Source: an uncultured Pseudomonadota bacterium (lineage in GTDB: Bacteria; Myxococcota_A; UBA796; GCA-2862545). Taken from it: 64,000 bases of DNA. A program made the position numbers and the translations under genes. The notes beneath the pieces are model-generated. The model was given only the letters and a program-made list of their open reading frames with translations, was not told the DNA's origin and made no database searches. This document shows positions 56,218-64,000 of this stretch, piece by piece. Within the stretch, counting starts at the first letter, position 1, and every line of letters starts with the position of its first letter. The stretch covers positions 434,001 through 498,000 of the forward strand of contig CAJXTB010000001.1 in NCBI GenBank assembly GCA_913061235.1. The letters are read 5' to 3'.

Positions 56218-57270
56218 ATGCGCTTCATCACACCACTGCTTTTGTGTCTCGCGACCGCCACATCGGCGTACGCGCAAGACACCCCTACCGACGGCACTGC
56301 TGACGGGGGCGAACCGACGCCTGCTGCACCGGCAACTGCCCTCGAAGACGACGACATTGACTACAGCATCACGGTGTACGACGACATGTTCGCGCGATGG
56401 GACGGCACCCGCTGGTTCGTCGCGACCGAAGTCACGGTGCCCGACCCTGTCGTGTTCCAGGCCCGAAACAACTGGGAATTTCGGAGTACCAAGTACCAAG
56501 TTCGCACCATCATTGCGTGCGAGAAGGACTGGCGCCGAAGCCGCCGACGGTTTGAGGTCGACTGCACCATTGAAGACTTCGGAATGCAGTCGATAGCCCA
56601 GGACCGGGACAACCCCGCGCGGGTCCAGCAGATCCTAGACGAAATCGATACCGCCCTGTCCGGTAGCTACCTACAGCTGTCCGTCCGCGATGACGGCCGC
56701 GTCGTAGGAATTGACCTAGAAGGTCCGACCAAGCGAAACAATCGCGAAGATGTCATCCACGAGACGCTGCGCTTGGTGATGAGCCGGGTCATCGTTGGCT
56801 ACGACATGCGTCTGCGCAAGTTCAAGGACCTGTCGGAGGGTGTGTGGGTCGAGTACAACTCCTCGCTCATGTCGATTCCAAGCCTCGATGCCAGCAGCCG
56901 GGGCACCTCTACGCTCGTTCACAAGCTGGAGATGCTCGAAGGCCACGCAACGGTTGAGTCGCGGGGTCGCGGCCTGATTGCAACCGGCAACGACCAAGTG
57001 TTCGGCTACTTTGACACCGACTACAGCGGCGTTGCTGTGTACGACCGGGTTGAAGGCTTCATGACCGAGCGCGTCTGGGCACTTCGCGGCATTCCAACGG
57101 CGTCCAGTACCTTCTCGACCTTTGGCGTAGGCAACGAGTACCACCACGTTGGACGCCTGCGCATCATCCAAGATGAAAACGAGATTCCCGAGGTCGGCCC
57201 CACCCGCCAGTGCTCGCCTCCGGGTATCCAGCATGCCCTCCTCCCAGCGTGGCTTCCCCTCGAGGACTAG
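56218..57270 (+). CDS. Secreted protein, first of a tandem paralogous pair
   Basis: 350 residues. The signal peptide MRFITPLLLCLATATSAYA ends before QDTP, and GAGAGG precedes the ATG. The mature protein shares a run of blocks with the next gene: ARWDGTRWFVATEV, NWEFRSTKYQVR, RRSRRRFEVDC, DTALSGSYLQL, GVWVEYNSSLMSIP, DASSRGTSTLVHK and YDRVEGFMTERVW. The fold is unknown, likely beta-rich and periplasmic. Its stop overlaps the GTG start of its paralogue by one base. Confidence 0.85.
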   Translation: MRFITPLLLCLATATSAYAQDTPTDGTADGGEPTPAAPATALEDDDIDYSITVYDDMFARWDGTRWFVATEVTVPDPVVFQARNNWEFRSTKYQVRTIIACEKDWRRSRRRFEVDCTIEDFGMQSIAQDRDNPARVQQILDEIDTALSGSYLQLSVRDDGRVVGIDLEGPTKRNNREDVIHETLRLVMSRVIVGYDMRLRKFKDLSEGVWVEYNSSLMSIPSLDASSRGTSTLVHKLEMLEGHATVESRGRGLIATGNDQVFGYFDTDYSGVAVYDRVEGFMTERVWALRGIPTASSTFSTFGVGNEYHHVGRLRIIQDENEIPEVGPTRQCSPPGIQHALLPAWLPLED

Positions 57271-58259
57271 TGCGGTTTCGCCTCTGCCTAGCCGCCGGTG
57301 TGTTGCTCACCACCACCGCCTTCGCCCAAGACGACGTTGACGCCGAGATTCGAATCTACGACGCTGACGCGCGCTGGGCTGGCACAGAGTGGTTCGTTGA
57401 GACCGAGGTCGTCCTCCCTTGGGTGACGACGCTCTCCGGCGCGAACAACCAGTCTTTTCGCACGTCTCAGTACCAGCTACGCGCCCACTTGCGCTGTGAC
57501 CGAATGGAGCAGGCACGCCGACGCAGGCGACAGGTGGACTGCGCCATCGCGGATGTGGGCCTACAGGTTGTCGCGGTCGAGGATGACCCAGAATCCACCG
57601 TTGCTGCCGTCCTACAAGACGTCGACACCGCTCTGACGGGCGCATCCCTACAGCTCCAAGCACACGCCGACGGCCGTATTGTTGGACTCGCTCTTACCCA
57701 GCTTGGAGACGGTCTCTCCAACGACCGCCACTTCCCAGAGACCCTGCGCATGTTGATGAGTCGCGTTGTCGTGGGCTTCACGATGAAGCTGCCGGACAAC
57801 CACGACCTCAGTGATGGTGTTTGGGTGGAGTACAACAGCGACTTGATGTCCATGCCGACAGAAGACGCCACAAGCCGAGGGACCAACGAGCTCGCCCATC
57901 GCATGACCACTCACGCGAGCCACGCAGTCGTCGAGTCAACCGGACGTGGCATGACCCAAGTGGGCGACTTCTTTGGTCAGAACACGCTGCCCGAGATGAC
58001 GTTCACCATGAGCTACGCCGGCCTCGCGATCTACGACCGCGACCTTGGCTACATGAACGAGCGAGTGTGGCGACTGGTCGGCACACCCAGCATCCTGTCG
58101 ACCCGCCGCGCCGAAGGCAAGGTCATTGGCTATGCGCACACTGGGCGACTCCTAGAGGTTCGGGGCCATGCCGTACCTGACGTCGGGCCGAGCCGGCAGA
58201 TAGCCGAGCCAGATACTGTGAGCCCAACACTCCCCGCCTACACCGCGCTCGATTTCTAG
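57270..58259 (+). CDS. Secreted protein, second of a tandem paralogous pair
   Basis: 329 residues from the GTG at 57270, inside the previous stop, with GAGG at 57262-57265; a frame extension to 57210 is not needed. Signal peptide to AFAQ. It carries the same ordered blocks as its neighbour: ARWAGTEWFVETEV, RRRRQVDC, DTALTGASLQL, GVWVEYNSDLMSMP, DATSRGTNELAHRM, YDRDLGYMNERVW. The two clearly arose by tandem duplication and have diverged widely. Its stop shares CTAG with the convergent LtrA-Kir gene. Confidence 0.85.
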   Translation: MRFRLCLAAGVLLTTTAFAQDDVDAEIRIYDADARWAGTEWFVETEVVLPWVTTLSGANNQSFRTSQYQLRAHLRCDRMEQARRRRRQVDCAIADVGLQVVAVEDDPESTVAAVLQDVDTALTGASLQLQAHADGRIVGLALTQLGDGLSNDRHFPETLRMLMSRVVVGFTMKLPDNHDLSDGVWVEYNSDLMSMPTEDATSRGTNELAHRMTTHASHAVVESTGRGMTQVGDFFGQNTLPEMTFTMSYAGLAIYDRDLGYMNERVWRLVGTPSILSTRRAEGKVIGYAHTGRLLEVRGHAVPDVGPSRQIAEPDTVSPTLPAYTALDF

Positions 58260-60268
58260 TCGTCCATCGACTCGGTCAGATGGAACTTATCGAGGTCCAA
58301 CACAATACGACCGTCGTCCGTCTGACCCATGACATCCACGAATCGGTGATTGTGGCGGACCTCTTCCGGCTGGTAGACATGGCGCGCGTAGATGGTCTGG
58401 CTGTAGGTACCGTCGTAGCCAGTCAGCGTGACAATATAGCCGAAGACGTGTTCCCAGACGTCTTCGGCAACCAGTGGGCTGTCCTCGTCAATCACGTGCA
58501 TGACCGACCACGTCAGTCGGAACAATGGGGTGACATCCCGCAGTAATTCCAGATCGTGTAAGCGACGCATGTGGTCGCCTTCCGGCGTGACTTCATCCAG
58601 CAGAACCGAGATGGTGAGGCTGGCACCGACCACGTCATTGCCCCGTGCATTCGCGACGCGCAGCATGAGCGTGTCCTGGCCATGCCGCGAGTTGATGACC
58701 ATGCAGTCGCTCCACAGAATGGACGCGCGCGGTCGGCTCGCTTTCGCGAACATCATTCCCGTTGCAAGAGCGCCGTACAAGATGCCAACAGCGGACTCCA
58801 CAGTCACCAGGCTGTGTCCCCAGGTCGTAGCCGGCGCATACACGCCGTAGCCGAGCGATGTGAGGGTCTGAACGCTGAAAAAGAAGGCTTCAGCGTAGGT
58901 CTGCCCGGCAGTCCCGGAGATGGAGCCCGGCTCGACTTGGTACAGCCCGGCGAACAGTGCGTTGATCACCACGTAGACGAAACAGAAGGCCATGAGCACG
59001 CGGGTCCACGAGCCTTCCATCAGGAAGAAATAGAGGTCTCGGCCAGAACGTGCGGCCGCGCCAATACGAATGGAGTTGTCCAAGTTCGGACGCTGCGCCG
59101 CAGGGGTCCCGGTGCCCTCCCGACGCTCGCGGTCCAGTTCCGCGGTAGGCCGAGCGCCCTCAATGATCCCGGCTTCAAGCGGTACTGCCAGCATATCTGT
59201 GATGACCTGTCCAACGCACAAGGCCACAATGCCCAGCAGGTAGGTCATCGTGGACAGATCCGACGCAGCCTGGGTCAGAACCAAGATGAACACGGCCGTC
59301 AACACCCGTATTGCAATGCGGGCACGGTCCGAGAGCGCCGCTTCATACCGTTCTGTGAAGGTGTCGACTACGGCAACACTGATCAGTACGCCCGCCAGAC
59401 TCGCCCCCAGCAACCAACGTCCAGCCGCAGCGGCGGGAACATCCATCTGTCCGGTGGCTACGAGTGTCACGCCAAGCCCAACCAGCGTCAGACACAACGA
59501 CAGCGGTAAGTGGGCCAGGCGCCAAACCAGTGATGCACCCGGCGAATCCCGCAGGCGACGGCCAGCGACGTCGTCGAAATAGATCCACCACACACTCACC
59601 GCAATGAGCAGATGGAAGGCGCCACGCCCCAGGGTCTGGAGGTCTGCATTCTCCACGGAGAGCTCAGCTTGGACCTTCACAAAGGAGGCGCCCATCAACA
59701 CCAAAATGAACAGGCCAAATCGCCGTGACAGATGTTCTTGATGCAGTGGGATGGCGGCTTCGACGCGACGGCTCGCTGGGTGCACCGTAACGACCACAAA
59801 GCCGAGCGCCGTTACCCCCCACAGGGCCAAACCGATGGGAGCCGGTACGACTGCGCAGACCGAGGCGACCAGCGTACTCACCGCAAATGCGCTGGCCCAG
59901 ATCCTGCTAAACGTTCGCGCCGCTGGCGTCTGAATTAGAGCACGAACGTAAGCCACACACACCGTGGCCTGCGACACAGCAAAGGCCAAGGCGAAGAGTG
60001 TCCAGTCGCCGCCGAGAGCCTCGCGTGCTGTGACACCCATGGCACCAACGCCCAAGACCTGAACCAAGACCAATGCACGGTGAGGCAGGTCGTCGAGCTC
60101 AAACCGGTTGGCGAAGAAGGTGGCCCCGCTCCAGACCAGCCACACAGACGCCGCACAGATCGTCGCCGACAGCACGCGCACCGGAGTCATGGCATCCGGA
60201 AGTAGACTCGCGACTTGAACCAAACAAGCCGCCACAACGACATCAACTAGGATCTCGAGCCAGTCCAC
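58256..60268 (-). CDS. LtrA membrane domain fused to KirBac-type inward-rectifier K+ channel
   Basis: 670 residues from the GTG at 60268, with GAGGGG nine bases upstream; no ATG lies near. Residues 1-~385 have many transmembrane helices and LtrA (low temperature requirement A) features: DWLEILVDVVVAACLVQVA, then WLVWSGATFFANRFELDDL and VLGVGAMGVTA. From ~408 it is a bacterial inward rectifier: slide helix RDLYFFLMEGSW, pore helix AFFFSVQTLTSLGYG with the filter near 470, second helix GILYGALATGMMFAKASRP, then the cytoplasmic beta domain with LRVANARGNDVVGA, TPEGDHMRRLHDLELLRD and VMHVIDEDSPL. It probably conducts K+ through a tetramer. The joining of the two domains is in one continuous frame. 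Confidence 0.9.
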   Translation of the reverse strand: MDWLEILVDVVVAACLVQVASLLPDAMTPVRVLSATICAASVWLVWSGATFFANRFELDDLPHRALVLVQVLGVGAMGVTAREALGGDWTLFALAFAVSQATVCVAYVRALIQTPAARTFSRIWASAFAVSTLVASVCAVVPAPIGLALWGVTALGFVVVTVHPASRRVEAAIPLHQEHLSRRFGLFILVLMGASFVKVQAELSVENADLQTLGRGAFHLLIAVSVWWIYFDDVAGRRLRDSPGASLVWRLAHLPLSLCLTLVGLGVTLVATGQMDVPAAAAGRWLLGASLAGVLISVAVVDTFTERYEAALSDRARIAIRVLTAVFILVLTQAASDLSTMTYLLGIVALCVGQVITDMLAVPLEAGIIEGARPTAELDRERREGTGTPAAQRPNLDNSIRIGAAARSGRDLYFFLMEGSWTRVLMAFCFVYVVINALFAGLYQVEPGSISGTAGQTYAEAFFFSVQTLTSLGYGVYAPATTWGHSLVTVESAVGILYGALATGMMFAKASRPRASILWSDCMVINSRHGQDTLMLRVANARGNDVVGASLTISVLLDEVTPEGDHMRRLHDLELLRDVTPLFRLTWSVMHVIDEDSPLVAEDVWEHVFGYIVTLTGYDGTYSQTIYARHVYQPEEVRHNHRFVDVMGQTDDGRIVLDLDKFHLTESMDD

Positions 60269-60512
60269 TTTGAACGACCCCTCAAGGTCGTGCCGAACTC
60301 GCGGATAATGGTGCCATCGACTGCGCAACGGGGACTCTCCAAAGGGTTGCCGCCCTACCCAGTCCGAGGGAGACGTGCACCTATGCGGCTTTTTTGTCGC
60401 ACTTGTGCCGGTGTCAATGGTCAATCCTGGCTGATGGTCCGGGTTTCGTGCGGTATGCTTATTGCAGAAGTGTGGAACCTCAGCGCACACTCGCCGTATG
60501 GACGGAGTCCCG

Positions 60513-62195
60513 ATGACCATTCGAAACAGCTTGCTACCCCTCGCCGCACTCACACTCTTCTCGTGTGCAGACGACGGGAACTTTGTGCAGTTCGATACGC
60601 CACCCGCGGTGACCATTGCTGAACCCCTCGAAGGCATGATCTTCGACACCGGCGAGACCGTGGTGTTCCGTGGCCTCGTCAGCGACAACGGCGGCGTGGC
60701 CAACCTTGAGATTCAGTGGGCATCGTCCATCGACGGCATCCTGTTGGACACCGACCTCCCCGACCCGAACGGCGCCGTTGAGTTGGCCACCGCATCGCTG
60801 TCGACCGGAACACACATCGTCACACTTCGCGCCTTCGACGAAGGTTCCAACCAGGGCGAAGCGCGCGTGAACATCGTGATCGAAGGCGTTCCCGAGACGC
60901 CGTCCATCGAGATCGAGCATCCGCTCCCCGGCGAGACCGGCCTCGAAGGCACGCCCTACACCTTCGCCGCTCGTGTGAGCGACGCCCAAGACGACGTCGC
61001 ATCCCTAGCCGTTGAGCTGAGCAGCGACGTCGCTGGCTTCATCTGCGACATGACGCCCACATCGGTCGGCGTAGCTAGCTGCCCGGCCACCTTGGACTTC
61101 GGCGAACACATCGTCACCTTCACCGTGACCGACAGCGATGGCCTGACAAACAGCGCAAGCGCCGTGTTCCAGGTTGTGTCCCTCGAAGACTACGACGCCG
61201 ACCGCGACGGCTGGACCCCGCGTCAGATGGACTGCGACGACAACAACAACACCGTGCATCCGGGTGCAACCGAGCTGTGTGACGGCCTGGACAACGACTG
61301 TGACCCACGCACTCCCATCGACTCAAACACCGAGTGCTACGACGACGACGGCGACAACTACTGCGAAGCACCACCGTGTGTGAACGCGAGTGGTGGGCTG
61401 TCCGATTGTGATGATGCGGCACCGGGGATTTACCCTGGGGCGAATGAGGTTCCGGACCTAGTCGACAATGACTGTGATGGCATTGTGGATGATGGACTGA
61501 ACAACTTTGATGATGATGGTGATGGCTTTTGTGAACGGCCACCGTGTGTGAACGTCGCCGGCAGCACCAGCAGCAGCCCTCGTGACTGTAACGATGGCAA
61601 CTTCTCCGTAAGCCCTGCTGAAACTGAGATCTGCGGCAACGGTGTTGACGACAACTGCAACAACACCCAGAACGAACAGAACGCCATTCAGTGCACCAAC
61701 TTCTACGTAGACTCTGACAATGACAACTACGGCGTGAACGGACCGCGGGAGTGCTGGTGTGAAGGCGGTGGTGAAGCCCATCCGTATGGAGCGACCAATC
61801 CCAACGACTGTCTGGACACAAACGCCAACGTCCGGCCAAACCAGACCCAGTACTTCACCGAGCACCGTGGTGATGGCAGCTTCGACTATGACTGCAGTGG
61901 CTCGGCTTCCCGAAACCCCAGCCTAGACGAAATCATTGGTTGTGAGGCTGGTTTCCTGGGCCTGTCTTGTGACACAGTAGGGTCCGGTGGCTACGCTGGC
62001 GGCATCCCCCAATGCGGCCAAGCAGGCGTATGGGCTAACGACTGTGACAGCTGTACTCTCATCTTGGCTTTGTGCTTCGGTGGAAACATCGCACTGGGCG
62101 GCCAGCTCATCCCCTGCGACGTCCTGTGTCCGACCGGCGTGAGCTGCTCGATCGATACGGGTGATGTATCGAATCGCCGGATGTCGTGCCGGTAG
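60513..62195 (+). CDS. Surface lipoprotein with Ig-like domains and MopE-type metal-binding repeats
   Basis: 560 residues from the ATG at 60513, with CGGAG six bases upstream. The lipobox is LFSC. Two Ig/PKD-like domains cover about 22-115 and 125-222 (both with PGETG or TGETV turns). From ~225 come MopE-type units: DADRDGW...CDDNNNTVHPGATELCDGLDNDCD and variants (CDDAAPGIYPGANEVPDLVDNDCDG, GNGVDDNCN). These Asp/Cys modules bind calcium or other metals. A Cys-rich C-terminal domain follows. The 60269-60512 gap to the divergent channel gene should hold both promoters. It converges with the gene at 62247. Confidence 0.88.
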   Translation: MTIRNSLLPLAALTLFSCADDGNFVQFDTPPAVTIAEPLEGMIFDTGETVVFRGLVSDNGGVANLEIQWASSIDGILLDTDLPDPNGAVELATASLSTGTHIVTLRAFDEGSNQGEARVNIVIEGVPETPSIEIEHPLPGETGLEGTPYTFAARVSDAQDDVASLAVELSSDVAGFICDMTPTSVGVASCPATLDFGEHIVTFTVTDSDGLTNSASAVFQVVSLEDYDADRDGWTPRQMDCDDNNNTVHPGATELCDGLDNDCDPRTPIDSNTECYDDDGDNYCEAPPCVNASGGLSDCDDAAPGIYPGANEVPDLVDNDCDGIVDDGLNNFDDDGDGFCERPPCVNVAGSTSSSPRDCNDGNFSVSPAETEICGNGVDDNCNNTQNEQNAIQCTNFYVDSDNDNYGVNGPRECWCEGGGEAHPYGATNPNDCLDTNANVRPNQTQYFTEHRGDGSFDYDCSGSASRNPSLDEIIGCEAGFLGLSCDTVGSGGYAGGIPQCGQAGVWANDCDSCTLILALCFGGNIALGGQLIPCDVLCPTGVSCSIDTGDVSNRRMSCR

Positions 62196-62212
62196 GAGCG
62201 CCCTGAACGTGC

Positions 62213-62238
62213 AGAGACGCGGCAGTGGTCGCGCCTCT
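62213..62238. terminator. Inverted repeat between convergent surface-protein genes
   Basis: Nine-base arms AGAGACGCG (62213-62221) and CGCGCCTCT (62230-62238) match at eight positions around an eight-base loop. It is placed between two convergent stop codons, so a bidirectional terminator is plausible, although no T-run follows on either strand. Confidence 0.4.
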
Positions 62239-62246
62239 GGCGGTGA

Positions 62247-64000
62247 CTACAGTGCAGTGCCTCGGAAGATGTAGATACGGCGCCCGACAACGTCGGACAC
62301 CGCCAAGTCGTTGACTCCGTCATCATCCAGGTCGCCGCAGGCAACATCGAAGGGAGCTACGCCTCGCACGATGACAGTCGTGTCGTTTGGATAGCTACTT
62401 CCTTGTTCGGTGAAGAAGCTGACTAGTCGACTGATGGGCTCCATAACTCCATCAACAACTTCCCCGAACAGCTCGCTGACAAACACGTCGCCAAACGGTG
62501 ACAGGCCACACTGGTCGACCCCTAGAATTGCCCGCTGACCCGCTTGAAGTTGGCCAACGCCGGTCACGCTCTGAACCGACGGATCTAAGTCTGCCAATCC
62601 GAAGGGCTGCCGAGACACCGCCCCCAAGTCCAAGAACGCAGGCGTCAGGCCGCCACCGACGGTGAAATTCAGCTGGGCATCGATACCCAGGAACTGGACA
62701 GTCACCGGAGTGTTGTCCCCGCCAGGCAATCGCGACCCCATCAATCGAAAGGCAAACTGAGCGTCATCTCCTCCAATGGATGCGGATGTCATTAGCGGAG
62801 CAAACGACCGTAACTCCGTATCTAATGAGTTGAACGGTAGGGACAAGGCATGCACGCCAGCGAGGTCATCGACTTCGCCTACAAAGGTCACATGCTTGAT
62901 GAATCCATCAAAGCGAGACGCACCAAAGCTAGTCGCACTTCCACCTTCAAAGCTCGCGAAGGGCGAGTTAGCCTCCAGCGGGGAGCCCGTCCAAGGTCCG
63001 GCGTACAAACGAATTCCGCGTTCGAATGTTCCCCCGCCGACAAGGGGACGCGAACGCTCGCTCGACACGAGAAGGCCACTTCCCCAGCTGGGATTGATGC
63101 CATCCACTACCCTAAGTACTTCGCCAAACTCGACCGGAAAGTCCGTATCTGGAGAAGCAACCAGCGTAGGTAGATCAACGTCCGTACGACGGCCCTCTAG
63201 GTCCGTTGGGTTCCACCAAACGGCGACTCTGTCGCCCGCGTCATCTCCAACAACCCACTCAAGTGTGCCTTGATTGTCGAGATTGGCGAAGTCGACGGCT
63301 GCGCCCTCGTCAGTCCTCGCATGGTCTAGGCGAAGGTCGGCGGACCCTGACGGAATCAGGCCGAGCAGAGGACCGAAGTACGCGCTGGTTCGGTAAGGTT
63401 CATGGACCACAAGGTCATCCACTCCATCCGAGTTCAAATCCAACACACGGATGACTGCCCCTTCGGCGGGGAGAAACGCCAGCGCATCCGCAATCTCCCT
63501 CGGACTCTCCAGACCACATTGGTTTGGCGAACTGTCACAGTTGTCATCGATTCCGTTGTTGCAGATCTCAGGAAGACCTGGGCGAACGTTCGGGTCGTTG
63601 TCATTGCAGTCAGGCCCACCCGCACCAGAGATGCCGTCGCCATCGGCGTCAGTGTCGTTGCCATCGCAGTCTTGATCAACACTGTCGTACCAAATCTCCT
63701 GCGCGTTCGGAGACACACCGGCGTTGCCATCATCACAATCCACACCGCCCACTAGGTCCGGCAGCGCCCCAGCTGGGACAACACATCCAACCTGGGGTGT
63801 GCTCCCGGCAACGCCATCACCATCGGAGTCGACATACCAAGTCGACTCCCCCATTCCGCGGTCATCAACCAAACCATCGCAGTTGTCATCTACACCGTTT
63901 CCGCAGACTTCATCTTGATCAGGATTAACCGCAGGATTGTCATCGTCGCAGTCTGAACCATCCAACTGCCACGCTTCGTGGCCGTCACCATCACGGTCCC
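62247..64000 (-). CDS. MopE-repeat / FG-GAP surface protein (5' end outside window)
   Basis: At least 584 residues; the frame is open at the window edge, so the N-terminus is missing. The visible start has four MopE-type units (DRDGDGHE..., CDDDNPAVNPDQDEVCGNGVDDNCDG, CDDGNAGVSPNAQEIWYDSVDQDCDG, CNDNDPNVRPGLPEICNNGIDDNCD), each a likely metal-binding module. Then come FG-GAP/VCBS-like beta-propeller blades, e.g. VLDLNSDGVDDLVV and the final GDLDDDGVNDLAVSDVVGRRIYIF. It is probably an extracellular calcium-dependent adhesion or structural protein. Its TTG-like apparent start near 63965 is internal. Confidence 0.88.
   Translation of the reverse strand, partial: DRDGDGHEAWQLDGSDCDDDNPAVNPDQDEVCGNGVDDNCDGLVDDRGMGESTWYVDSDGDGVAGSTPQVGCVVPAGALPDLVGGVDCDDGNAGVSPNAQEIWYDSVDQDCDGNDTDADGDGISGAGGPDCNDNDPNVRPGLPEICNNGIDDNCDSSPNQCGLESPREIADALAFLPAEGAVIRVLDLNSDGVDDLVVHEPYRTSAYFGPLLGLIPSGSADLRLDHARTDEGAAVDFANLDNQGTLEWVVGDDAGDRVAVWWNPTDLEGRRTDVDLPTLVASPDTDFPVEFGEVLRVVDGINPSWGSGLLVSSERSRPLVGGGTFERGIRLYAGPWTGSPLEANSPFASFEGGSATSFGASRFDGFIKHVTFVGEVDDLAGVHALSLPFNSLDTELRSFAPLMTSASIGGDDAQFAFRLMGSRLPGGDNTPVTVQFLGIDAQLNFTVGGGLTPAFLDLGAVSRQPFGLADLDPSVQSVTGVGQLQAGQRAILGVDQCGLSPFGDVFVSELFGEVVDGVMEPISRLVSFFTEQGSSYPNDTTVIVRGVAPFDVACGDLDDDGVNDLAVSDVVGRRIYIFRGTAL

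Follow-up and report, generated by a model that had tools for sequence, protein, structure and literature searches.

KirBac channels are tetramers, and TMEM175, a lysosomal K+/H+ channel, is linked to Parkinson's disease. Each subunit of human TMEM175 contains two repeats, and the dimer has a pore built of four repeats (PMC7176437, PMC7141809); the protein is organised by the RxxxFSD motif (PMC7141809). The known bacterial TMEM175 proteins (PF06736) contain one repeat. Relatives of the KirBac channels with altered pore loops, the NirBacs of Anaeromyxobacter and Gemmatimonas, are devoid of the TxGYG filter and are non-selective (PMC4607889).

The only descriptions of LtrA that we found concern annotation and a cold-growth phenotype. 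Work cited in PMC5491136 showed that Listeria requires ltrA to grow in the cold, and its expression shows no notable change under these conditions (PMC5491136). The sequence-only reading of the DNA analysed here had presented LtrA as a membrane family of unknown activity; a recognisable fold, that of TMEM175, can now be predicted for it. No paper dealing with KirBac and LtrA together, or with TMEM175 and LtrA together, was found in a search that lay outside subscription papers, preprints and domain-architecture listings. An earlier notice of either link is therefore possible.

An LtrA domain and a KirBac channel in one reading frame

Within the window (the whole stretch of 64,000 nucleotides that was analysed), a minus-strand frame is open throughout from 58256 to 60703, with no break. 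The complete fused gene (58256..60328, minus strand) encodes 690 amino acids, from a TTG start to a TAG stop. Its start had been placed at GTG 60268. We move it to TTG 60328, because the 20 codons gained, LRSRWHHYPRVRHDLEGSFK, agree with the N-terminus MxSRWFHxPxLH of 11 of 11 aligned relatives (the window protein has LRSRWHHYPRVRH at this position) and because a Shine-Dalgarno sequence, GGAGAG (60335..60340, minus strand), lies 6 nt before the TTG codon. A sigma-70-type promoter was looked for upstream of the gene, and none was found.

The prediction that LtrA is joined in one frame to a complete KirBac channel was borne out by profile searches with the 670-residue version of the protein. Its N-terminal half matched LtrA (PF06772) with E=3.6e-46 and 158.5 bits, against a gathering cut-off of 31.9, over residues 2-348 and nearly the whole profile (3-348 of 356). 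The C-terminal half matched IRK_C (6.9e-20), Ion_trans_2 (6e-7) and IRK (3e-5), all above their gathering cut-offs, while residues 400-668 could be aligned end to end with KirBac1.1 (6.7e-54) and KirBac3.1 (5.8e-52) from the PDB. Membership in the KirBac family by sequence thus extends over the transmembrane (TM) and cytoplasmic domains.

In the complete protein, the LtrA half (residues 1-388; 59165..60328, minus strand), delimited by Pfam, an AlphaFold2 model and Foldseek/VIA comparisons, begins with the segment RSRWHHYPRVRH, followed by two 6-TM repeats, 12 TM helices in all (TM1-6 at residues 23-192, TM7-12 at residues 197-381), with the predicted TMEM175 fold. A cytosolic linker (residues 389-426; 59051..59164, minus strand) of low model confidence and of variable length among relatives leads to the KirBac slide helix (residues 427-438; 59015..59050, minus strand), placed by the KirBac match and the model. 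Across the fused proteins, the gap between the ends of the LtrA and Kir profiles is 12-30 residues. The cytoplasmic beta domain (IRK_C; residues 531-690; 58259..58738, minus strand) is supported by Pfam, the PDB match and the model. In the full-length AlphaFold2 model (pTM 0.54, linker pLDDT <50) the mutual orientation of the domains is not fixed.

The likeness to KirBac1.1 and KirBac3.1 (IRK_C PF17655, IRK PF01007) covers the full C-terminal half, i.e. the slide helix, two TM helices, the pore helix, a TxGYG-type filter and the cytoplasmic beta domain, but the fused protein has a 12-TM module ahead of the channel. The filter of the window protein, S491-L-G-Y-G495 (58844..58858, minus strand), contains a conservative T to S change and is followed by Val, whereas KirBac1.1 has Asp there. 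Most relatives have TIGYG (30 of 37 fused proteins), and all keep TxGYG, SxGYG or TxGFG. A non-selective filter of the NirBac kind can therefore be ruled out. The NirBacs share the KirBac scaffold and, in part, the phylum, but they have not been described as fused and differ from the LtrA-KirBac proteins.

The fusion is not confined to this genome. Scanning of a genome collection revealed 11 fused loci, 33-45% identical to the window protein; ten of them are full-length and one ends early, at residue 553. Profile searches combined with ORF analysis identified the fusion in about 35 of 379 Myxococcota genomes (30 full-length proteins, the window's own included, two further fusions in the genomes G015 and G069, and three that are truncated, in G253, G165 and G263), and more than 100 further genomes of the same set contain a KirBac-type match alone. 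LtrA itself was detected in 47 of 360 genomes of the phylum, mostly in fused form, with about eight clear standalone genes. Elsewhere the fusion is rare: it occurs in one of 297 sampled Acidobacteriota and at the locus L011, and in one of 192 genomes of the Bdellovibrionota, the phylum to which the Bdellovibrionales genome belongs. The window genome carries a single LtrA gene, the fused one, and one other, ordinary KirBac gene. This second KirBac (L003, G000:C13:64002) is encoded on another contig as a standalone protein of 321 aa and belongs to a separate clade.

The predicted TMEM175 fold of the LtrA half

The LtrA half was modelled by AlphaFold2 (12-sequence alignment) as a bundle of 12 helices, with pLDDT 83 and pTM 0.80. 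The sole confident Foldseek matches in the PDB were to human TMEM175 (prob 1.00, TM 0.55-0.61, E about 5e-3 to 2e-2). In VIA-align the top ten entries were all TMEM175; the best six, about 10% identical to the model, scored Z 24.6-25.6 with 329-350 residues aligned (339-344 residues at Z 25.6), and the next, unrelated, entry reached Z 8.9, a gap well above the level about which the tool cautions for helical bundles. The predicted model thus shows 6-TM repeats as in human TMEM175, over some 340 residues. Further points of likeness are an FSD-like motif in TM1, a conserved Trp in TM2 and cytosolic termini (PMC7141809, PMC7176437).

At TM1 the structural and profile alignments agree. Most VIA rows start at residues 20-22 of the model and 32-34 of the chain, i.e. 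with an offset of 12, which sets W23-L-E-x-x-x-D29 of LtrA on R35-M-L-S-F39-S40-D41 of human TMEM175 (residues 27 and 29 corresponding to F39 and D41). The window copy reads W23-L-E-I-L-V-D29 here (60242..60262, minus strand) and its relatives WLELFYD, so that the WxxxFYD (LELFYD) of LtrA stands in register with the RxxxFSD (LEAFSD) of TMEM175. Profile alignment of repeat 1 gave the same register (P 0.0014) and placed W66 of LtrA opposite the Trp that is conserved in TM2 of TMEM175. Repeat 2 retains R203 and has no FSD; profile alignment gave no significant signal between this repeat and TMEM175, nor any between the two LtrA repeats. PF06736, the Pfam TMEM175 model, did not match the window protein, and our own HMMs scored TMEM175 slightly above shuffled, reversed and Kir decoys, with marginal separation.

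The Pfam LtrA model also matched an Acidobacteriota TMEM175 protein (2.1e-7; 30.9 bits against the cut-off of 31.9), the match starting at the FSD motif. This bacterial protein, encoded at L122:1243-2121, shows in addition a match to rhodopsin (3e-4), which is probably spurious. Taken together, LtrA and TMEM175 are likely to be homologous, a relationship that sequence alone does not prove. LtrA would then be a bacterial counterpart of TMEM175 with two repeats instead of the one of known bacterial TMEM175 proteins. According to the models, two unrelated K+-channel folds of different symmetry, one a dimer of two-repeat subunits and the other a tetramer, seem to be combined in a natural polypeptide.

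The orientation of the LtrA half is indicated by its charges: the predicted loops contain 11.8 K/R residues per sequence inside and 1.0 outside. LtrA therefore has the N-in/C-in topology that both the KirBac half and TMEM175 require. Comparison of fused proteins with standalone LtrA identified 28 positions conserved in at least 94% of the former but in less than half of the latter. Most of these lie at the cytosolic ends, for example R4, H7, N74, R75, D196, D252, D253, D322, T325, R327, R337, D378 and P383, and sixteen are located in the cytosolic third (Fisher p 0.044, a modest enrichment to which clade ancestry could contribute). Such extra invariant residues on the cytosolic face fit, without proving, a contact surface for the channel.

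A working model and its alternatives

We propose, with about even confidence, that these proteins are KirBac K+ channels bearing an N-terminal 12-TM module of TMEM175 fold, LtrA, which biases the KirBac gate. The KirBac half would form the usual central tetrameric K+ pore, surrounded in the same membrane by four LtrA modules, probably arranged as two TMEM175-like dimers. Since KirBac is a tetramer, four chains would comprise one KirBac pore and two LtrA dimers, provided that LtrA pairs as TMEM175 does. LtrA would act on the KirBac gate through the short linker into the slide helix, and also through residues of its cytosolic face that fused, though not standalone, LtrA proteins keep invariant. 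The module would monitor its own ionic state or pH, and possibly conducts H+ or K+ itself. By biasing the opening of the KirBac pore it would enable a single protein to link K+ flow with another ionic signal. In general terms, the LtrA half may regulate the KirBac half or conduct a second ion. The sequence-only reading had considered that LtrA could gate the channel or sense for it, or be a transporter coupled to K+ flow.

It is also conceivable, though doubtful, that the LtrA dimers are working TMEM175-like pores for H+ or K+ lying beside the KirBac pore, the fusion fixing their ratio and place with no mutual gating. The TMEM175 fold and the retained FSD-like motif are consistent with this, as is a buried glutamate in TM7, E214, which is invariant except in the window copy. 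It follows R203 by 11 residues, a spacing that seems to equal that from R260 to the gate residue Ile271 in TMEM175; by this R-to-gate spacing E214 would, hypothetically, sit at the Ile271 gate position. However, no description of conduction by LtrA was found in the literature searched, the register of repeat 2 is without profile-alignment support, and in the window copy position 214 is Ala. Moreover, LtrA, when aligned by the motif register, does not keep the pore residues of TMEM175, Ile46/Ile271 (gate) and Thr49/Thr274 (layer).

A rather unlikely alternative is that LtrA is passive, serving as an anchor, an assembly factor or a lipid-binding collar for the folding, clustering or placement of KirBac, with no sensing or conduction. 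Among 35 fused proteins, the window copy has the LtrA half that diverges most (33.9% mean identity to the other fused proteins, whose median is 47.1%), whereas its Kir half is unremarkable (46.1%, the others having 49.0%). Furthermore, one lineage has dropped LtrA and kept the channel (L141). On our own, unpublished list of near-invariant LtrA residues (E25, D29, W66, R84, H199, E202, R203, G213, E214, W247 and W248), the window copy keeps all except E202, which is Arg (Glu in the other fused proteins, save for one Lys), and E214. The latter is Ala (codon 59687..59689, minus strand) only in this one of the 37 fused proteins, and Glu in all others compared and in 14 of 14 standalone LtrA. The other fused proteins nevertheless keep the motif residues E25, D29, W66, H199, R203, E214, W247 and W248 as standalone LtrA does. 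This disfavours a passive collar, which would not need such conservation.

The window protein has a full-length LtrA domain, a family in which most members carry the WLEL.xD, HxxER...LGE, WWxYF and His motifs, but it differs from that family in being fused and in the absence of E202 and E214. Judged by sequence, this marks it as a divergent member of LtrA, as the Pfam profile defines the family. Having lost E202 and E214, its LtrA half may be only a scaffold or an altered regulator. The window copy is therefore a good pointer to the family and not its best experimental member; L006 and L008 are canonical.

It is likewise improbable that LtrA proteins at large are bacterial two-repeat channels of the TMEM175 type and that, in the fused clade, the pores of the LtrA dimer and the KirBac tetramer gate one another, four chains of one polypeptide making one KirBac pore and two LtrA pores. 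The last alternative, that an assembly chimera or a frameshift at the junction near 59060 joined two neighbouring genes, found no support and is ruled out for practical purposes by the genome survey, since dozens of independently assembled genomes of different phyla carry the same uninterrupted fusion. The earlier suggestion that the fusion is a functional clue for LtrA gains weight: conservation of the link to a K+ channel, combined with the predicted TMEM175 fold, offers a concrete and testable role for this family in K+/H+ physiology.

Origin of the fusion and its genomic surroundings

Nearly all fused proteins fall into one clade in the trees of both halves, with 3 label changes in the Kir tree (22.8 in shuffles) and 3 in the LtrA tree (15.6 in shuffles); both were quick trees with many weak forks, and no branch order inside the fused clade is claimed. 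The simplest reading, consistent with these trees, is a single old fusion, after which one or the other half was probably lost in rare cases. A true KirBac-only gene of 327 aa with no LtrA upstream (L141:2876-3859) is nested in the fused clade and keeps a linker-like AIRIGAP segment. L129 is a true LtrA-only gene, which has lost R327, D378 and P383 and adjoins a putative ClC chloride channel gene. Neither half, therefore, strictly needs the other. Two further candidates for standalone genes within the fused clade, L083 (Kir) and L064 (LtrA), were rejected, as the genes run off the contig ends.

At L142:3620-6095, an LtrA-only gene of the fused clade from the phylum of the Bdellovibrionales genome is convergent with a gene resembling a ClC chloride channel and has a LysR-like regulator upstream; a stop-masked read-through of this locus gave no match when scanned against Pfam. 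A different LtrA fusion was observed in Acidobacteriota (L118:1435-2859), where a UBP-type zinc finger (zf-UBP, 3.2e-11) is attached at the C-terminus.

No conserved neighbour was seen as a partner of the fused gene in a scan of five relatives and one window neighbour. The neighbouring genes are unrelated, encoding an enoyl-CoA hydratase, an amino-acid permease with a TrkA_C domain, an ABC-F-like ATPase, an SDR, or proteins without a Pfam match. The permease, whose TrkA_C domain is C-terminal, is encoded at L014:3113-5134, a short distance upstream of a fused gene. In the window, positions 56218-58259 contain a duplicated pair of adjacent plus-strand genes, whose similar products are about 350 aa long and look secreted; the second gene has no Pfam match and ends convergently with the fused gene. 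On the other side (60462-63965), two convergent genes encode Asp-rich proteins with many repeats of the D-x-D-x-D-G type, MopE-like in look.
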